This document shows, piece by piece, positions 14,396-24,828 of a DNA stretch of 48,664 nucleotides. The first letter of the stretch is position 1. Each line of letters begins with the position of its first letter. Source of the DNA: Actinomycetes bacterium (GTDB lineage: Bacteria > Actinomycetota > Acidimicrobiia > Acidimicrobiales > Acidimicrobiaceae); NCBI GenBank assembly GCA_021822605.1, contig JAKAQL010000013.1, forward strand, positions 1 through 48,664, in the 5' to 3' direction. Position numbers and translations under genes: made by a program. The notes below the pieces were generated by a model, which saw nothing but the letters and a program-made list of their open reading frames with translations, was not told the origin of the DNA and searched no databases.

Positions 14396-15931
14396 TTGCT
14401 GACAGAACCAAGGAAACGGACCGAGACCTGGGTAAAGGTGCTCGATCAGAGTAAGTGTATCGGTTGTCACGCCTGCACCACCGCGTGTAAATCCGAAAAT
14501 GATGTACCGCTCGGGGTCACAAGGACCTATGTCAAGGCGGTTGAAGTCGGAGTCTTTCCTCACGTTCGTCGTAATTTTCAGGTTACTCGATGCAACCAGT
14601 GCGACAACCCACCCTGTGTGGCAGCCTGCCCCACAGGTGCCATGTACCAACGTGATGATGGCATCGTCGACTTTGACAAATCGATTTGCATTGGCTGCAA
14701 GGCATGCATGGCTGCGTGCCCCTATGATGCCATCTTCATCAATCCAGATGATCATTCAGCCGAAAAGTGCAACTTCTGTGCTCACCGACTCGAGGTGGGC
14801 CTCGAGCCCGCTTGTGTCGTCGTCTGTCCAACTGAAGCTATTTTGATTGGACGTCTCGAGGACATGAACTCTCCTGTGACAAAGACCATCCATCGCCAGA
14901 GCGTAGCGGTTCGATCACCTGACAAGGGAACGCGCCCGAAGGTCTACTACAAGGGTGCGCACCAAGCAACCCTTGATCCGATCGCAGCCACTCGCCCCAG
15001 CGGCGATACCTTCATGTGGTCCGAGATTCAGCGCGGACCCAATCTTGCGGTATCAGGCCATCCTGCGGACTTCCATGACTCCAATCTCTCCACCGAGGCG
15101 AAGCTCGCCTATGATGTTGCCCACTCAGCTCCGTGGGGGTGGAAGGTCAGCCTCTACACATGGACCAAGGGAATCTCGGCAGGTGCCTATCTCGTTCCGA
15201 TACTGCTCGCACTGCTTCACCGTCTGCCTTGGTCATCACCAGTCGTGCGATTCGTTGGACCCGTCACGTCTCTTGTATTCCTCGGCATCACCGGTATCTT
15301 GCTCATCATCGACCTCAAACACCCAGAACGGTTTCATCTGATCTTCCTCAAAGGTCGCCTCCAAAGCTGGCTCGTGCGTGGTGCCTGGGGTCTCATGCTT
15401 TTTGGGGGTGTCGTCACTCTTGACCTTGTTGCTGCCATTTTCCGTGCAAGAACATTTGAGGAACTACTGGCCATTCCGGGCATACCACTGGCTTGCCTCG
15501 CCGCCCTCTATACTGCGTTCCTCTTCGCCCAGGCAAAAGCCCGTGACCTCTGGCAAAATCCTCTGCTGCCACCCCACTTGGTGATCCAGGCACTGCTGGT
15601 GGGAGCGGCGATCACCTTGTTCGGTGCTGCAGCGGCAAATCCACTCCACGTTGCCTACCTTGACCGCATCGTCAGTGCCCTCGCCGTGATCAACCTGGCG
15701 ATGGTGATCGGCGAAGCCACTATCACCCATCCCACTGCGAAGGCGCATCTTGCCTCCTACGAGATGACCCGTGGGCGCTTCAAGTGGGCCTTTCTGGCAG
15801 GTATTCTTCTCAACCTACTCGCGATCGCCACTCCGCTCGTCGGTATGGATCTTGGGGTCGCCGCTCTGCTCTGCATTTTGCCCCTCGAACATGCCTTCGT
15901 ACAAGCTGGACAAGCGGTTCCGCTCGCCTGA
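14396..15931 (+). CDS. Fused four-cluster ferredoxin / NrfD membrane subunit
   Basis: This 511-residue protein joins the electron-transfer and membrane subunits of a DMSO-reductase-family complex. Residues 1-180 are a PsrB/DmsB-like ferredoxin with sixteen Cys in four groups (Cys 21/24/27/31, 66/69/74/78, 98/101/104/108 and 125/128/140/144), enough for four [4Fe-4S] clusters. From about residue 225 it is an NrfD/PsrC-like membrane part with about eight helices that would exchange electrons with quinone. These are usually two proteins. No signal peptide precedes the ferredoxin, so the clusters should face the cytoplasm. The start is TTG with AAAGGGG five bases upstream. It is first in an operon with the molybdenum subunit and a TorD-like chaperone. 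Confidence 0.85.
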   Translation: MLTEPRKRTETWVKVLDQSKCIGCHACTTACKSENDVPLGVTRTYVKAVEVGVFPHVRRNFQVTRCNQCDNPPCVAACPTGAMYQRDDGIVDFDKSICIGCKACMAACPYDAIFINPDDHSAEKCNFCAHRLEVGLEPACVVVCPTEAILIGRLEDMNSPVTKTIHRQSVAVRSPDKGTRPKVYYKGAHQATLDPIAATRPSGDTFMWSEIQRGPNLAVSGHPADFHDSNLSTEAKLAYDVAHSAPWGWKVSLYTWTKGISAGAYLVPILLALLHRLPWSSPVVRFVGPVTSLVFLGITGILLIIDLKHPERFHLIFLKGRLQSWLVRGAWGLMLFGGVVTLDLVAAIFRARTFEELLAIPGIPLACLAALYTAFLFAQAKARDLWQNPLLPPHLVIQALLVGAAITLFGAAAANPLHVAYLDRIVSALAVINLAMVIGEATITHPTAKAHLASYEMTRGRFKWAFLAGILLNLLAIATPLVGMDLGVAALLCILPLEHAFVQAGQAVPLA

Positions 15932-15994
15932 TGCGATCGATCAACCTCGCGTTATTAACGATGACTATCGTCTTCAAGACTTTAAGGAGTATTA

Positions 15995-18898
15995 GTGAGT
16001 GACCTCAACAAGCTAAGTGATCGTATTCGGGCAAGACGTGAGGCGGTCGATGCTGCTGGCGAGACGTTCTATCAGGGACCGTCGCGGACCGACCTCGCCA
16101 GCTTTCCCCCGAAGGAGAGCTGGGATGATTGGGTCGAACTCGACTCCCACCAGTGGCCTAAGCGGGTGGAACGCCACTCGATGTTGATTCCCACAACCTG
16201 TTTTAACTGTGAATCCGCCTGCGGTTTACTGGCCTACGTTGATCGTAGTACCCTGCAAGTCCGCAAATTCGAAGGTAACCCTGAACACCCAGGGTCACGA
16301 GGCCGAAACTGTGCCAAGGGGCCAGCTACCATCAACCAGGTAACCGATCCCGACCGAATTCTCTATCCACTCAAGCGTGTAGGGCCTAGAGGGCAGGGCC
16401 GATTCGAGCGTGTTTCCTGGGATGAGGCTCTTCGTGATATCGCCAACCGGCTACGAACGGCCATCCTCGAGGAGCGACAAAATGAGATCATGATCCACCT
16501 TGGACGTCCAGGCGAGGACGGCTACACGGAACGCGTCCTTGCCGCCTGGGGTGTTGACGGCCATAACTCCCATACGAATGTCTGTTCCTCAGGAGGGCGG
16601 GCAGGTTACCACTATTGGAGCGGTATCGACCGCCCAAGTGCCGACTTTGCCAATGCCAAGGTTATCTATCTCATCAGCTCTCATCTCGAGACCGGGCACT
16701 ACTTCAACCCGCATGCCCAGCGCATCACTGAAGCTCGCCAACGTGGTGCGAAGCTCATCGTGGTCGATACTCGGCTGTCGAACACAGCCACCCACGCTGA
16801 TCTGTGGATCTCTCCATGGCCTGGCACCGAAGCGGCGATGAATCTTGCCTTTGCAAACTACCTCATCCAGAACGATCTCTATGACCGTGAATTCGTGCGC
16901 AGGTGGTGGAACTGGCAAGAGTACCTCTCGGCTGAGGCACCGACGGAACCGCAAACCTTCGAGAACTTCGAGGTCCACCTCAAGTCGATCTATGCCGACT
17001 ACACGCTGGAGTTTGCCGCCGCTGAAACCAGAGTCGATATCGAGACGCTCCGCGAGGCAGCCGAGATCATCGGGACATCTGGGACAGCGCTCTCAAGCCA
17101 CAACTGGCGCTCTGCCGCTGCCGGGAACCTCGGTGGCTGGCAGGTATCGCGCACTACTTTTCTCCTGAATGCTCTCCTCGGCGCGGTAGCAACCCCTGGG
17201 GGAACCAACCTGAATGCCTGGAATAAGTACGTCCCCCGACCTATCCACACCCCCGGCCACCCTAACGTCTGGAACGAACTCTCATGGCCCTTAGAGTTCC
17301 CGCTGGCCATGAATGAACTCTCCTACCTCCTGCCTCACCTCATAGAACGGACCGGTCGGCGACTGGAGGTCTATATGACCCGTGTCTACAATCCCGTCTG
17401 GACCAATCCAGACGGCTTCTCATGGATCGAGATGCTCTTGGACGAACATAAAATTGGTTGTTACGTTGCACTCACCCCTACGTGGAACGAGACTTCTTTC
17501 TTCGCCGACTATATCCTACCGATGGGTCACGCATCGGAACGACACGACACCTTTTCATATGAACAGTACGATGGTCAATGGATTGGATTTCGCCAACCAG
17601 TGCTAAAAGTAGCACGAGAGCGGCTCGGAGGGCGGGTCTATGACACTCGCGAGGTGAATCCAGGAGAGGTGTGGGAGGAGAACGAATTCTACATTGAACT
17701 CTCCTGGCGTATTGACCCCGATGGATCTCTCGGAATACGGCAGTACTTCGAGTCGCGACGCCATCCCGGATCGAAGCTCACAGTAGAGGAGTACTACAGT
17801 TGGATGTTCGAAAACTCTGTACCTGGTCTCCCGGAGAGAGCAGCAGCAGAGAACCTCACCCCGTTGGAATACATGCAGCGTTACGGTGCCTTCGAAATTC
17901 GCAATGGGGTCGGGCAAGTCTTCGCGGAGGAGGTACCCGCGAGCGAACTTGAAGATTTAGCGGTGACGCCCTTCGGACGGGTGTACTCTAGCGCTCCCAA
18001 ACCTGTTACCTCCAATATCGTGCCAACTGGAGACCCAGCGCCCGATGACGAGGGTCGACGCCCCGTTGGCATCACCGTCGACGGTGCAGTGCGTCGAGGC
18101 TTCCCCACGCCATCTGGTCGTCTGGAGTTCTACTCCACGACACTCGCGGATTGGGGTTGGAAGGAGTATGCCACTCCGACCTATATCAAGAGCCACGTTC
18201 ATCCAGAACGACTCACTCCGGACCAGTTCCCGCTCATCTCAACGTTCCGGTTGCCAGTGCAGATCCACACACGCTCGGCAAACTCAAAGTGGCTTGATGA
18301 GATCGCGCACACCAACCCGGTATGGATCAACCCCGTTGATGCCTCACGCCTCTCCCTGAGTGATGGCAACCTGGTTCGGGTCAACACTGATCTCGGCTAT
18401 TTCGTTGCGAAAACCTGGGTCACCGAGGGGATTCGACCAGGTGTCGTCGCCTGTTCCCACCATATGGGCCGGTGGCGAATAGGCGATCTCGGGTCGTCGG
18501 CAATGATGCGCTCTGTCAGTCTCGCCAAGGAGGGAACTCAGTGGGGAATGCATCCCCACGGAGGTGCCCAGCCCTACGAGTCCAGCGACCCCGACACCGC
18601 CAGAATCTGGTGGACTGACATCGGTGTCCACCAGAACCTTACCTTTGGGGTGCATCCCGATCCAGTGTCAGGGATGCACTGCTGGCACCAGGTTGTGACG
18701 ATCACAAAGGCTGAACCAGAGGACCTTCATGGTGAAGTCCATGTTGACACCTCACGTTCACGAACAATCTTTGAACGCTGGATGCAGCTCACTCAATCAG
18801 CCGAGGATGTGTCGCCGAATGGTACTCGGCGCCCCCGCTGGCTTCTGCGCCCTCTGAAGCCGACAACGCAAGCCTTCGAACTCCCGACATCTGTTTGA
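15995..18898 (+). CDS. Molybdopterin oxidoreductase catalytic subunit without Tat signal
   Basis: This 967-residue member of the DMSO reductase family has a [4Fe-4S] site at Cys 69, 72, 76 and 106 (C-x2-C-x3-C-x29-C) and a likely molybdenum ligand Cys 197 in NVCSSGGRAG. The first 60 residues contain neither a twin-arginine motif followed by a hydrophobic stretch nor any other export signal, so it should work in the cytoplasm. The sequence resembles polysulfide/thiosulfate/tetrathionate reductases and also SoeA, the cytoplasmic sulfite dehydrogenase, which likewise lacks a Tat signal; I cannot choose the substrate. Sulfur chemistry fits an acidophile but is inference. The start is GTG with AAGGAG upstream; the stop overlaps the TorD-like gene. 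Confidence 0.85.
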   Translation: MSDLNKLSDRIRARREAVDAAGETFYQGPSRTDLASFPPKESWDDWVELDSHQWPKRVERHSMLIPTTCFNCESACGLLAYVDRSTLQVRKFEGNPEHPGSRGRNCAKGPATINQVTDPDRILYPLKRVGPRGQGRFERVSWDEALRDIANRLRTAILEERQNEIMIHLGRPGEDGYTERVLAAWGVDGHNSHTNVCSSGGRAGYHYWSGIDRPSADFANAKVIYLISSHLETGHYFNPHAQRITEARQRGAKLIVVDTRLSNTATHADLWISPWPGTEAAMNLAFANYLIQNDLYDREFVRRWWNWQEYLSAEAPTEPQTFENFEVHLKSIYADYTLEFAAAETRVDIETLREAAEIIGTSGTALSSHNWRSAAAGNLGGWQVSRTTFLLNALLGAVATPGGTNLNAWNKYVPRPIHTPGHPNVWNELSWPLEFPLAMNELSYLLPHLIERTGRRLEVYMTRVYNPVWTNPDGFSWIEMLLDEHKIGCYVALTPTWNETSFFADYILPMGHASERHDTFSYEQYDGQWIGFRQPVLKVARERLGGRVYDTREVNPGEVWEENEFYIELSWRIDPDGSLGIRQYFESRRHPGSKLTVEEYYSWMFENSVPGLPERAAAENLTPLEYMQRYGAFEIRNGVGQVFAEEVPASELEDLAVTPFGRVYSSAPKPVTSNIVPTGDPAPDDEGRRPVGITVDGAVRRGFPTPSGRLEFYSTTLADWGWKEYATPTYIKSHVHPERLTPDQFPLISTFRLPVQIHTRSANSKWLDEIAHTNPVWINPVDASRLSLSDGNLVRVNTDLGYFVAKTWVTEGIRPGVVACSHHMGRWRIGDLGSSAMMRSVSLAKEGTQWGMHPHGGAQPYESSDPDTARIWWTDIGVHQNLTFGVHPDPVSGMHCWHQVVTITKAEPEDLHGEVHVDTSRSRTIFERWMQLTQSAEDVSPNGTRRPRWLLRPLKPTTQAFELPTSV

Positions 18899-19755
18899 GT
18901 GCGAGCAACGAAGCTATGGTCGTCCAACGAAGTGCCGAGATTCTGGAGGCGATCGCCGAGGTAATCGAAAACCCTGACCCCCATCCAACGATCCCAGAAG
19001 TTCTTGACCTTGTTTGGACAAGGGATGCCTTTACCGAACTATTTGACTTCGACCTACCACCCTTTGCAAGCTACTACCTGACGATTGGGCCGGTACTTGG
19101 TGGAACCCCAGTTGACTACCTACGCGGTCTTCTCTCTGCTTACCTGCCGCCGGAGTTGCAGCCGACCCAACCAGACTCTTTGGCTTTTCTGTTGCGGTTG
19201 CTCGCCTTCCTTGCCGAACAAGAGAGCTGGGAGCGTGCCGAGGCAATCTTCTACGAAGCACTCAACCCGTGGCTCAGCACCTATGCTCACGCAGTGGCTA
19301 CCTTCGCCCCATCTGGGTTGCGTCGCATTGGAATCTTGCTCGGCGAGATCTGTGAAACGTGGTACGAAGCAGTTCCGCCGGTCACAACCTTGCCATATCT
19401 ATTGCGCCATGTCCCAGAGCCGCCATCGGAGGATGATCGCAAAGACCTCGTGGACTTTCTGTTGTCGCCAGTCGCCTCTGGATTGATCCTGCCGAGATCA
19501 CAACTCATCCGGATCACTCACCAGCGAGAAATCGGCATGCGACCAGGGGGAAGGCGCTTTAGCTTTGAGTCGCTGCTCGATACATCCCCCAAGGCGACCT
19601 TAGCCGCGGTACTCGAGTCCGTTGAGGGACAGTTGCGGTGGTATCAACCTATGGACTCCCCTGTCTCCAGATGGTGGCAGGAACGCCTCACCCGGACCCA
19701 TGAGCGCGTCAGCACCCTGTTGAGTCAGAGGGCTGAGTCAAGACTTGGCAACTGA
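18895..19755 (+). CDS. TorD/DmsD-like molybdoenzyme maturation chaperone
   Basis: This 286-residue, probably all-helical protein lies directly behind the molybdenum subunit and fits the TorD/DmsD/NarJ chaperone family in features such as LPPFASYYL, and LLRLLAFLAEQE. Such chaperones insert the molybdopterin cofactor and hold the enzyme until assembly. The start TTG overlaps the previous stop (TTGA); an ATG at 18916 is an alternative. At 286 residues it is longer than many TorD proteins (about 200), with a C-terminal extension from about residue 200 of unknown role. The family call rests on context and general features. Confidence 0.7.
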   Translation: MSASNEAMVVQRSAEILEAIAEVIENPDPHPTIPEVLDLVWTRDAFTELFDFDLPPFASYYLTIGPVLGGTPVDYLRGLLSAYLPPELQPTQPDSLAFLLRLLAFLAEQESWERAEAIFYEALNPWLSTYAHAVATFAPSGLRRIGILLGEICETWYEAVPPVTTLPYLLRHVPEPPSEDDRKDLVDFLLSPVASGLILPRSQLIRITHQREIGMRPGGRRFSFESLLDTSPKATLAAVLESVEGQLRWYQPMDSPVSRWWQERLTRTHERVSTLLSQRAESRLGN

Positions 19756-23438: not shown

Positions 23439-24779
23439 TCAGATCTGGGATAGTCCATTCGCCAAGTCATCGTCGATGACCACCACCTCGAAGCCCCGTG
23501 CCGCCAGCATCGAACCCGCTGCAGAGGCGCGATAGCCAGCAGCACAATGGACGACAACCGGCGTGGTCATGTCGATTTCGTGGAGTCGATCAGCCACTTC
23601 GTAAATCGGAATCTGCTTCGCACCAGGTAGACGACTCTGCCGATGTTCAGAAGGGTTGCGGACATCGAGCAACTGATGTGGCGTCGAGACGATGGTGTCA
23701 AAATATTCGGCAAAGTCAACGGCAGGGATCGACCGCTCGCCTACCACCGCACTCAACTCTTTGGCATCGACTTGGCCGAGGATGTGCTCAATACCAATGA
23801 AACCCAAGGAGGTGACGGCCGCGAGCGGGTCTGACGAGTCATCAGTAACAAGAATAATTTTCGAGTCACTAGGGATCGTCCACCCTAGGTAGGTGGAGAA
23901 CAGGGATCCATACTCCATGAGTCGGGCTCCATCGGGATGCGAGTCAAAATGATCACGGCGAGCCCTTATATCGACAGCGAGAGCACCCTCCTCACGCAAC
24001 TTCGCGGCCTCTGCGCCGGTCAACACGGGAGGAGTCTTGGGTCGGAGCGCTGACGCACCTGCAAGGTTGGCCGGCCCCATATGACGATAGTAGGCAGGGT
24101 ATGGATCGTAGCTTGCCATCAACATCGCGACAAAGTCATCCTCAGATGGATACTGGAAGACGATATTGACTCGTCGTTCTCCACCAACGGTACCGTCAGA
24201 GACCTCCTGAACGGAGACTGCAGAGCAGAATGAGCCAAAACCATGCGTGGGCATCAACTGAGTAGCACCAGGTAGGTCATCGGCAAGGCGATGAACGCTC
24301 TGGTACTGCGCATGTGTCAGCGGCTCCGTCATGTCCGCTGAGATCAGGTCGGTTCGACCAACGCTACCATAGAGCATGGATCCACCACTCATCACTGCAC
24401 CGACCGGGTCTTCGATGGAGGTAATCCGGAACGAGATATGCGTAGGAGTATGGCCAGGCGTGTGAAGAATGCTGACCGTCAGCGGACCAAACTCGAACAC
24501 ATCTCCGTCCCGTACCGGTACGCGCTCAAAGGCAACCGGGTCGTCGGCATGAACGAGATAGGGCACTCCAAGCTCACTGGCGAGTGCGAACCCACCACTG
24601 ACATAGTCGTTGTGCATGTGTGTATCACCAACGGCCGCGATGACGAGGCCTCGATCGGCGCAAGTAGTAATGATTCGATCAATATCACGCTGTGGATCAA
24701 CGATAAATGCCGTGCTCCCTTCTGAGATCACGTATGATCGATCACCAAGCTCAGGCGTCGCAATGACCGTAATGTCCAT
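23439..24779 (-). CDS. Persulfide-dioxygenase-like metallo-beta-lactamase with two rhodanese domains
   Basis: This 446-residue protein has an N-terminal metallo-beta-lactamase domain of the ETHE1/BaeB/CstB type, with the metal motif THMHNDY at 53-59 and HTPGHTP further on, then two rhodanese domains. The second keeps the catalytic Cys (VVVHCAAGYR, Cys 412). The first has ILVTDDSSDP where the Cys loop should be and looks inactive. Such fusions oxidise persulfides and move sulfane sulfur between thiols and sulfite or thiosulfate in the cytoplasm. The start is ATG 24779 with GAGGGGAAG upstream. A CsoR/CstR-like palindrome lies over the promoter. Confidence 0.85.
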   Translation of the reverse strand: MDITVIATPELGDRSYVISEGSTAFIVDPQRDIDRIITTCADRGLVIAAVGDTHMHNDYVSGGFALASELGVPYLVHADDPVAFERVPVRDGDVFEFGPLTVSILHTPGHTPTHISFRITSIEDPVGAVMSGGSMLYGSVGRTDLISADMTEPLTHAQYQSVHRLADDLPGATQLMPTHGFGSFCSAVSVQEVSDGTVGGERRVNIVFQYPSEDDFVAMLMASYDPYPAYYRHMGPANLAGASALRPKTPPVLTGAEAAKLREEGALAVDIRARRDHFDSHPDGARLMEYGSLFSTYLGWTIPSDSKIILVTDDSSDPLAAVTSLGFIGIEHILGQVDAKELSAVVGERSIPAVDFAEYFDTIVSTPHQLLDVRNPSEHRQSRLPGAKQIPIYEVADRLHEIDMTTPVVVHCAAGYRASAAGSMLAARGFEVVVIDDDLANGLSQI

Positions 24780-24804
24780 AAGAACGCTTCCCCTCTCAGC
24801 ACAC

Positions 24805-24828
24805 CCGTGCATATACCCTGCACGGTAT
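24805..24828 (-). promoter_or_regulatory. Candidate persulfide-responsive (CsoR/CstR-type) operator
   Basis: Two overlapping inverted repeats: CCGTGCA-TATACCC-TGCACGG (24805-24825, perfect 7-bp arms) and ATACC-n6-GGTAT (24813-24828). The ATACCC/GGGTAT pattern recalls operators of the CsoR/CstR family, and CstR controls persulfide enzymes in staphylococci. It lies between the -10 and the start of the MBL/rhodanese gene. No regulator gene is in the window. Confidence 0.45.

Follow-up and report, generated by a model that had tools for sequence, protein, structure and literature searches.

The window analysed here is a 48,664-nucleotide stretch of contig JAKAQL010000013.1 from an Actinomycetes bacterium (assembly GCA_021822605.1). 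Three adjacent genes on its plus strand, in the order BC-A-chaperone, encode a molybdoenzyme complex in which an iron-sulfur ferredoxin (B) and an NrfD-type membrane anchor (C) are one protein and A is the catalytic subunit. From its sequence, the complex is probably a cytoplasm-facing sulfite:quinone oxidoreductase. The genes occupy positions 14396-19755, where a preliminary description of this DNA had placed them:

14396..15931, plus strand: fused ferredoxin/NrfD subunit, 511 aa, TTG start
15995..18898, plus strand: catalytic molybdopterin subunit, 967 aa, GTG start
18895..19755, plus strand: TorD/DmsD/NarJ-type chaperone, 286 aa, TTG start, overlapping the catalytic gene by 4 bases

Pfam places Fer4_11 at residues 60-152 and NrfD at residues 243-497 of the 511-aa protein, which has a PsrB-like domain for four [4Fe-4S] clusters (about residues 12-200) followed by an eight-helix NrfD/PsrC-like anchor (about residues 249-506). 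An alignment of 34 rows shows sixteen invariant cysteines (C21, C24, C27 and C31; C66, C69, C74 and C78; C98, C101, C104 and C108; C125, C128, C140 and C144). The structural model proposed earlier as a check was calculated with AlphaFold2 (AF2; pLDDT 82.7, pTM 0.83) and has eight membrane helices. In Foldseek this single chain matched both PsrB (2vpw_B, TMt 0.83) and PsrC (2vpw_C, TMt 0.75) of Thermus thermophilus. In Thermus PsrABC, which we take to be an exported complex, B and C are separate proteins and the catalytic subunit is just distantly related to the 967-aa protein (127 bits). Pfam, the model and inspection of the N-terminus agree with the earlier reading of a signal-less ferredoxin domain at the start of the membrane subunit, whose predicted roles, from sequence and model, are to conduct electrons and to anchor the complex in the membrane.

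The 967-aa protein has the Molybdopterin, Molydop_binding and Fe4S4 domains of Pfam. It is a catalytic subunit of the bis-molybdopterin guanine dinucleotide (bis-MGD) type with one [4Fe-4S] cluster (C69, C72, C76 and C106), and Cys197 is, from an alignment to ArrA, the probable Mo ligand. ArrA and Thermus PsrA are its top PDB matches, and DmsA, PhsA, ArrA and PsrA are the highest-scoring named catalytic families. All NCBIfam matches lie far below their cut-offs (PhsA 178 against 694 bits, TtrA 104 against 1750, formate_DH_Act 77.5 against 1400, ArrA 124 against 1600) and no family names the complex. Annotated records call the subunits merely 'molybdopterin-dependent oxidoreductase', '4Fe-4S dicluster' or 'NrfD' protein.

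The 286-aa protein matches Nitrate_red_del (Pfam, E 2.6e-5). Its AF2 model (pLDDT 92.8) matches the structures of DmsD, YcdY, TtrD and NarJ in Foldseek with weak E-values (best 1.0e-3), and 12 of the first 13 matches are members of the DmsD/NarJ family. Both features of NarJ/DmsD/TorD chaperones are present, namely an all-helical NarJ-family fold and a gene beside that of a molybdoenzyme, which bears out the TorD-like chaperone described earlier; presumably it serves the maturation of the catalytic subunit. A homologue is found in 44 of 85 loci compared, never more than 4 kb from the catalytic gene. In Rhodococcus (L036:8799-9968) and Natrinema (L037:8897-10057) an Mrp/NBP35 ATP-binding protein is encoded 3' of the catalytic gene, at the usual place of the chaperone, and is perhaps used for Fe-S loading instead of a TorD-like helper.

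The preliminary description considered a fused B-C subunit unusual and the complex a possible enzyme of these acidophiles. Instead, the fusion turns out to be the standard form of a widespread clade. Both parts were detected in 96 of 115 loci, and in 95 of these 96 they form a single open frame; the lone unfused locus is that of Sulfurovum mangrovi. The remaining 19 loci could not be scored, about 12 of them through lying too near the locus end, and one of the 19, Natrinema (L037), is fused, with a 607-aa open reading frame (ORF) spanning both parts. The loci are not independent of each other, as Ferrithrix is both L012 and L102. The recurrence of the same fusion in 95 loci rules out an assembly or frame artefact.

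In the order of the window, the catalytic subunit has matches (E<=1e-30) in 73 of 198 genomes, and 67 of these 73 were counted as family members (at least 50% identity, fragments included). The species-genome collection gave at least 590 candidate stretches, and in at least 569 a relative is encoded at E<=1e-3, a threshold that can include other molybdoenzymes. The best 80 of these at least 590 stretches are 56-76% identical to the catalytic protein of the window. By title they belong to Actinomycetota, Acidobacteriota, Gemmatimonadota, Chloroflexota, Binatia, Planctomycetota, Nitrospinota, Bacillota, and Delta- and Gammaproteobacteria, although single phylum labels may be wrong because nearly all of these stretches come from metagenome bins. 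The complex also occurs on plasmids of Thermomicrobium roseum, Rhodococcus jostii RHA1 and haloarchaea. A search of the class around one genome (G198) matched 96 of 344 genomes, with identities mostly of 57-69%; such high values make its class (Gammaproteobacteria was intended) doubtful, so only wide occurrence is drawn from this search. In the class around a second genome (G199) 12 of 370 genomes matched, and all 11 besides G199 itself have relatives of 30-36% identity, nine of which are flagged for twin-arginine translocation (Tat).

No B/C gene was detected upstream of the catalytic gene in L076 (3.1 kb), L080 (9.0 kb) and L097 (10 kb), which may represent a soluble or rewired version; L076 and L080 keep the downstream gene for a protein with metallo-beta-lactamase (MBL) and rhodanese domains. 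A gene for a PemK/MazF-like toxin (by Pfam in L058) and a small upstream partner lie between the BC and catalytic genes at L058:9394-9959 and L065:9407-9963, and such a pair also precedes the catalytic gene in L076.

Export signals were described earlier as absent from the catalytic subunit, and a Tat signal missed through a wrong start was named as a possible refutation. Inspection of both upstream stretches revealed none: 3 codons (catalytic subunit) and 13 codons (fused subunit) separate the starts from in-frame stops, without an RR pair, and so few codons leave no room for a missed signal. An alternative start was rejected on these grounds. Relatives agree: the Tat pattern occurs in none of the 45 catalytic rows of the family (44 of them different). 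It is likewise missing from all 68 fused subunits whose N-terminus can be seen, the other 27 of 95 fused rows being truncated by the end of the locus. The pattern is imperfect: TtrA and L161 go undetected although their N-termini resemble Tat signals, and RR pairs are present in 14 of the 45 catalytic rows. Over the first 55 residues, the highest 13-residue hydropathy has a family median of 0.13 (maximum 1.57), versus 1.34 in the Tat-exported group.

The 45 rows used for the trees were picked for spread from 110 usable family ORFs, with Ferrithrix entered twice and Sulfurovum left out. In an 82-row tree they are monophyletic (support 100) and adjoin Tat-exported NrfD complexes (support 98), while ten SoeA-type proteins group with PhsA and TtrA-like rows (support 91, long branches). 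In a 32-row tree a joint clade of the family and the SoeA-type rows is rejected by the approximately unbiased (AU) test (p 0.0015). FdnG is placed far from the fused family in both trees, and placement in a formate or nitrate enzyme clade, which had been named earlier as a second possible refutation, was not the outcome. The trees give poor positions to relatives from the window's own genome and to further long rows.

We identified the SoeA-type rows from their anatomy (952-984 aa, no Tat signal, a 230-251-aa Fe-S protein and a DmsC-type anchor), not by a match to a characterised SoeA. To find their operons, the class of G199 was searched for the DmsC family, which occurs in 50 of 141 genomes, and 30 loci were retrieved. 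Twelve places were chosen by eye, 11 of them had the operon, one cut by a contig end was dropped and ten entered the tree; TusA and/or DsrE2 genes adjoin two of these operons. All 45 fused-family rows and all 10 SoeA-type rows have Cys-Ser at the Mo site, versus Cys-Glu in nine of 12 rows of the Tat-exported group, an absent aligned Cys in two and Cys-Ser in one (L163). Formate dehydrogenases have Cys or Sec followed by His here. The shared Cys-Ser is suggestive of convergence, and no proof of it. L163 (L174, genome G798), whose own N-terminus is not visible, has an Fe-S partner that starts without a signal and is possibly one more cytoplasmic form.

The closest functional parallel drawn in the preliminary description was SoeABC. 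This likeness stands as a functional one, through the sulfur-oxidation neighbours and genome content described below; a phylogenetic identity with SoeA does not, as the family groups with the Tat-exported NrfD complexes. According to the passages of PMC8076601 and PMC6335251 on SoeABC (Allochromatium vinosum, Aquifex), that enzyme likewise has no Tat signals, a four-cluster ferredoxin and an eight-helix anchor expected to be inverted. The anatomy used here fits these descriptions, including the soeABC-mogA-rhd-tusA-dsrE-hdr cluster of Acidithiobacillus caldus in PMC6335251. TusA/DsrE neighbours and, in our SoeA-type rows, a length of about 960 aa are further common points. In contrast, SoeABC has separate subunits in the order A-B-C and a DmsC-like anchor, whereas the fused family has the order BC-A-chaperone, B and C in one protein and a PsrC/NrfD-like anchor, and the catalytic subunits, with the SoeA-type rows assigned by anatomy, are not one clade.

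The exported Psr, Phs and Ttr reductases share the NrfD/PsrC anchor and a four-cluster Fe-S subunit, but the complex has no Tat signal and stays below their family cut-offs. Its nearest catalytic relatives in the trees (30-36% identity) are Tat-exported complexes of Pseudomonadota, for example on a plasmid of Azoarcus sp. KH32C. They have an NrfD anchor and, in Azoarcus, L169 and L170, a similar gene order of B, C, A and TorD. They differ in the Tat signal on A (in L168-L170 also on B), in separate B and C genes and in an opposite lean of loop charges. The plasmid-borne complex of Sulfurovum mangrovi (NZ_CP087125.1) is closer, with 38% identity over 92%, an NrfD anchor, a TorD gene downstream and no signal on A or B, but its B and C genes are separate and its NrfD has loop charges of the exported pattern. 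Its catalytic gene (L038) lies in two frames in the record.

According to the passages on SoeC in a review of NrfD-like subunits (PMC8076601), SoeC should be inverted in the membrane because its partners are cytoplasmic. We examined the orientation of the fused anchor by the positive-inside rule, counting Lys and Arg (K+R) per loop. Because the helix caller did not detect helix 7 of the fused set and split two control sets too finely, only loops L1-L6 were used, and 56 of 96 fused sequences had a recognisable first-helix motif, the rest being dropped. The K+R counts for L1 to L6, followed by the sums of even and odd loops, were:

Fused anchor (n=56): 0.9, 4.4, 0.8, 2.0, 0.6, 2.9; even 9.3, odd 2.3
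SoeC-type anchors (n=11): 0.4, 4.9, 0.3, 1.7, 0.2, 6.5; even 13.1, odd 0.9
Sister-group NrfD, Tat-exported (n=5): 2.4, 1.4, 1.6, 1.0, 3.1, 0.8; even 3.2, odd 7.1
DmsC-type, Tat-exported (n=2): 2.5, 1.5, 1.5, 0.0, 2.0, 1.5; even 3.0, odd 6.0
TtrC-like, Tat-exported (n=4): 2.9, 1.3, 3.3, 1.5, 2.0, 1.4; even 4.2, odd 8.2

By this rule, the heavy even loops of the fused anchor predict that the ferredoxin side is inside. The contrast suggests that, by sequence, this anchor is inverted relative to its nearest exported kin and lies in the same sense as SoeC, with Sulfurovum breaking the pattern. The earlier proposal that the active side faces the cytoplasm agrees with the lack of signals found in the family and with the loop charges, to which Sulfurovum is the one exception.

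Neighbouring genes were compared in 85 loci, up to 4 kb from the catalytic gene (556 kb) and beyond (594 kb), with identities confirmed on one to five members per cluster by Pfam or NCBIfam. Enriched near the complex are MBL-rhodanese proteins (15 versus 3), SulP sulfate permeases (13 versus 2), DsrE2 (8 versus 1), TusA (4 versus 0) and GcvH/LbpA (7 versus 3). The LbpA/GcvH proteins are found within 4 kb in four loci, LysR regulators in nine, a MoCF_biosynth protein of the MogA/MoaB kind is nearby in four and Hdr-like neighbours occur in a few. No arsenic genes are among the recurrent neighbour clusters identified. On plasmid pRHL3 of Rhodococcus jostii the genes DsrE-TusA-BC-A-Mrp are consecutive. 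At L101:12830-15040, next to the complex, a single protein combines a SulP sulfate permease with STAS and rhodanese domains; this locus also has TusA-, DsrE2- and MBL-rhodanese-like genes. The window itself holds one such gene outside the operon, 4.5 kb from the complex genes:

23439..24812, minus strand: MBL-fold and rhodanese protein, persulfide-dioxygenase-like, rhodanese by Pfam

Its MBL part is no more than a sub-cutoff match to GloB, and its homology cluster comprises 17 loci, the window included. Possibly this protein is a functional partner of the complex, in which case it would make cytoplasmic sulfite.

Another contig of the same genome (C93; L234, 908-12355) carries TusA, DsrE, HdrC-, HdrB-, HdrA- and HdrCB-like genes, two electron transfer flavoprotein genes (EtfBA), a 721-aa Fe-S/CCG protein, two GcvH/LbpA-like genes and a further DsrE gene, with subunit names assigned by domain and order. 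For the first DsrE-like gene the family match is split into two short segments. This layout corresponds to the Group III arrangement of Actinobacteria and Firmicutes in the passages of PMC6067878 on this sulfite-yielding system (sHdr). On a further contig a sulfide:quinone oxidoreductase (SQR) gene lies beside a DsrE2-like gene (L235:1734-2984; 569.8 against a cut-off of 525 for the 'type III SQR, selenoprotein subtype' model). The genome has no AprA above cut-off and one short Oxidored_molyb protein, which has an RR signal, unlike a cytoplasmic sulfite oxidase. Of the 198 genomes of the order, 12 have the sHdr marker (HdrB, E<=1e-40), and each of these 12 also has the complex; 11 are among the 18 genomes whose catalytic subunit is at least 68% identical to that of the window. 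In the window's own family, Acidimicrobiaceae, the complex accompanies the marker in 4 of 4 genomes. Thermomicrobium roseum, another carrier, also has an sHdr cluster, as reported in the passages of PMC6776052 on this species.

Taken from sequence, these observations make it probable that the complex is a membrane-anchored sulfite:quinone oxidoreductase facing the cytoplasm, SoeABC-like in action and of a separate lineage; its substrate, direction, quinone site and any proton translocation are what we infer. The sHdr pathway, and in relatives probably persulfide dioxygenase too, would supply sulfite in the cytoplasm, and this would be oxidised with H2O to sulfate at the Cys197-ligated bis-MGD site of the 967-aa subunit. 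Five [4Fe-4S] clusters, one in the catalytic subunit and four in the ferredoxin domain, would carry two electrons to a quinone bound at the inner face of the NrfD-type anchor and thereby feed respiration. This anchor would lie inverted compared with the exported Psr/Ttr-type enzymes. Sulfate would leave by SulP or other carriers, and the chaperone would insert the cofactor, with no part played by export. As to origin, the chances are about even that this is a second, independently evolved cytoplasmic sulfite:quinone oxidoreductase, in which a Tat-exported ancestor lost its signals, fused B to C and flipped the anchor, and which then spread over many phyla as the unrecognised last step of sulfur oxidation through sHdr and persulfide dioxygenase.

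Several points weigh against this interpretation. The signal-less, unfused NrfD of Sulfurovum, aligned to the family, is heaviest in L1, L3 and L5, the exported pattern; either the positive-inside rule fails there or the anchor is a transitional case, and it slightly lowered our belief in an independent origin, from a little above even to even. The odd/even contrast is weaker in the exported sets than in the fused and SoeC sets. The link of the family to the Tat rows has a support of 88 in the 32-row tree, below that of the large tree, long branches are joined in both trees, and the first tree was already known when the AU test was run. The window's genome has three further PF00384 proteins. 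The operon in the window contains no sulfur gene, and sHdr and SQR are on other contigs. The association of sHdr marker and complex in the order (Fisher 1.1e-6, 67 of 198 genomes being carriers) comes from counts made by hand and a test that ignores shared ancestry. Of the 67 carriers, 55 have no sHdr marker; there the complex needs sulfite from elsewhere or a different substrate, and sHdr is not the sole partner. Other sulfur chemistry would fit SulP and DsrE2 as well.

The carriers without the marker favour a reading that overlaps with ours in chemistry and differs in role: in most of them the complex may mainly remove sulfite from persulfide, cysteine or sulfonate breakdown and not serve lithotrophy. 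MBL-rhodanese proteins being the commonest sulfur neighbour fits this as well. A quinone-linked complex would nevertheless still feed respiration, and every sHdr-marker genome of the window's family carries the complex, and we hold this role as possible but doubtful for most carriers.

A reverse direction or another sulfur substrate appears unlikely. The complex would then be a cytoplasm-facing quinol:polysulfide, thiosulfate, tetrathionate or persulfide oxidoreductase receiving sulfane sulfur from TusA/DsrE. PsrB and PsrC are indeed the closest folds, the best named families are those listed above, the sister group is Tat-exported, and TusA and DsrE2 carry sulfane sulfur, not sulfite. Against this, every NCBIfam match is far under its cut-off, and the neighbours include the sulfite-forming side (MBL-rhodanese, and in few loci LbpA and Hdr-like proteins) together with sulfate permeases. 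Carriers such as Rhodococcus, Thermomicrobium and haloarchaea, which we take to be aerobes, make cytoplasmic polysulfide respiration unlikely.

A dehydrogenase for formate or another carbon substrate, or an arsenate enzyme, is very improbable: the passages of PMC8076601 on the tentative FqoABC pair an FdnG-like subunit with an eight-helix NrfD anchor in Actinobacteria and Chloroflexi, and ArrA is a top PDB match, but the Mo-site Cys is followed by Ser and not His in all family rows, FdnG is distant in the trees, the formate_DH_Act and ArrA scores are far below cut-off and arsenic genes are missing from the recurrent neighbour clusters identified.

Besides the ferredoxin-NrfD fusion there is a second, separate Fe-S/anchor fusion. 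In 17 of the 30 DmsC loci a 585-672-aa frame combines ferredoxin motifs with a DmsC-type anchor:

L180, L183, L184, L186-L189, L192, L195, L197-L201, L203, L205, L207: ferredoxin-DmsC-type fusion
L225:4538-6511: ferredoxin-DmsC-type fusion between two molybdopterin genes

The ferredoxin-NrfD complex is not described in the literature passages on SoeABC, NrfD or fused subunits that were searched (PMC5114278, PMC6335251, PMC8076601, PMC6303296, PMC3534657, PMC13019369, PMC9386147, PMC10926707, PMC8056723), subscription papers lying outside this search, and the main text of PMC8076601 contains no word beginning with 'fusion' or 'fuse'. The fused family seems to be a large, uncharacterised clade whose design was apparently reached separately from SoeABC by inversion of the anchor. 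Canonical SoeC is listed in Proteobacteria, Clostridia and Aquificae in the passages of PMC8076601 on its distribution. If our interpretation is correct, a common gene set would become recognisable as a cytoplasmic sulfite oxidase, and complete cytoplasmic sulfur oxidation would extend to members of the Actinomycetota, Acidobacteriota, Gemmatimonadota and Chloroflexota without a reported canonical SoeC. The family would then also document how a respiratory anchor was turned over in the membrane during evolution, of which traceable cases are rare.

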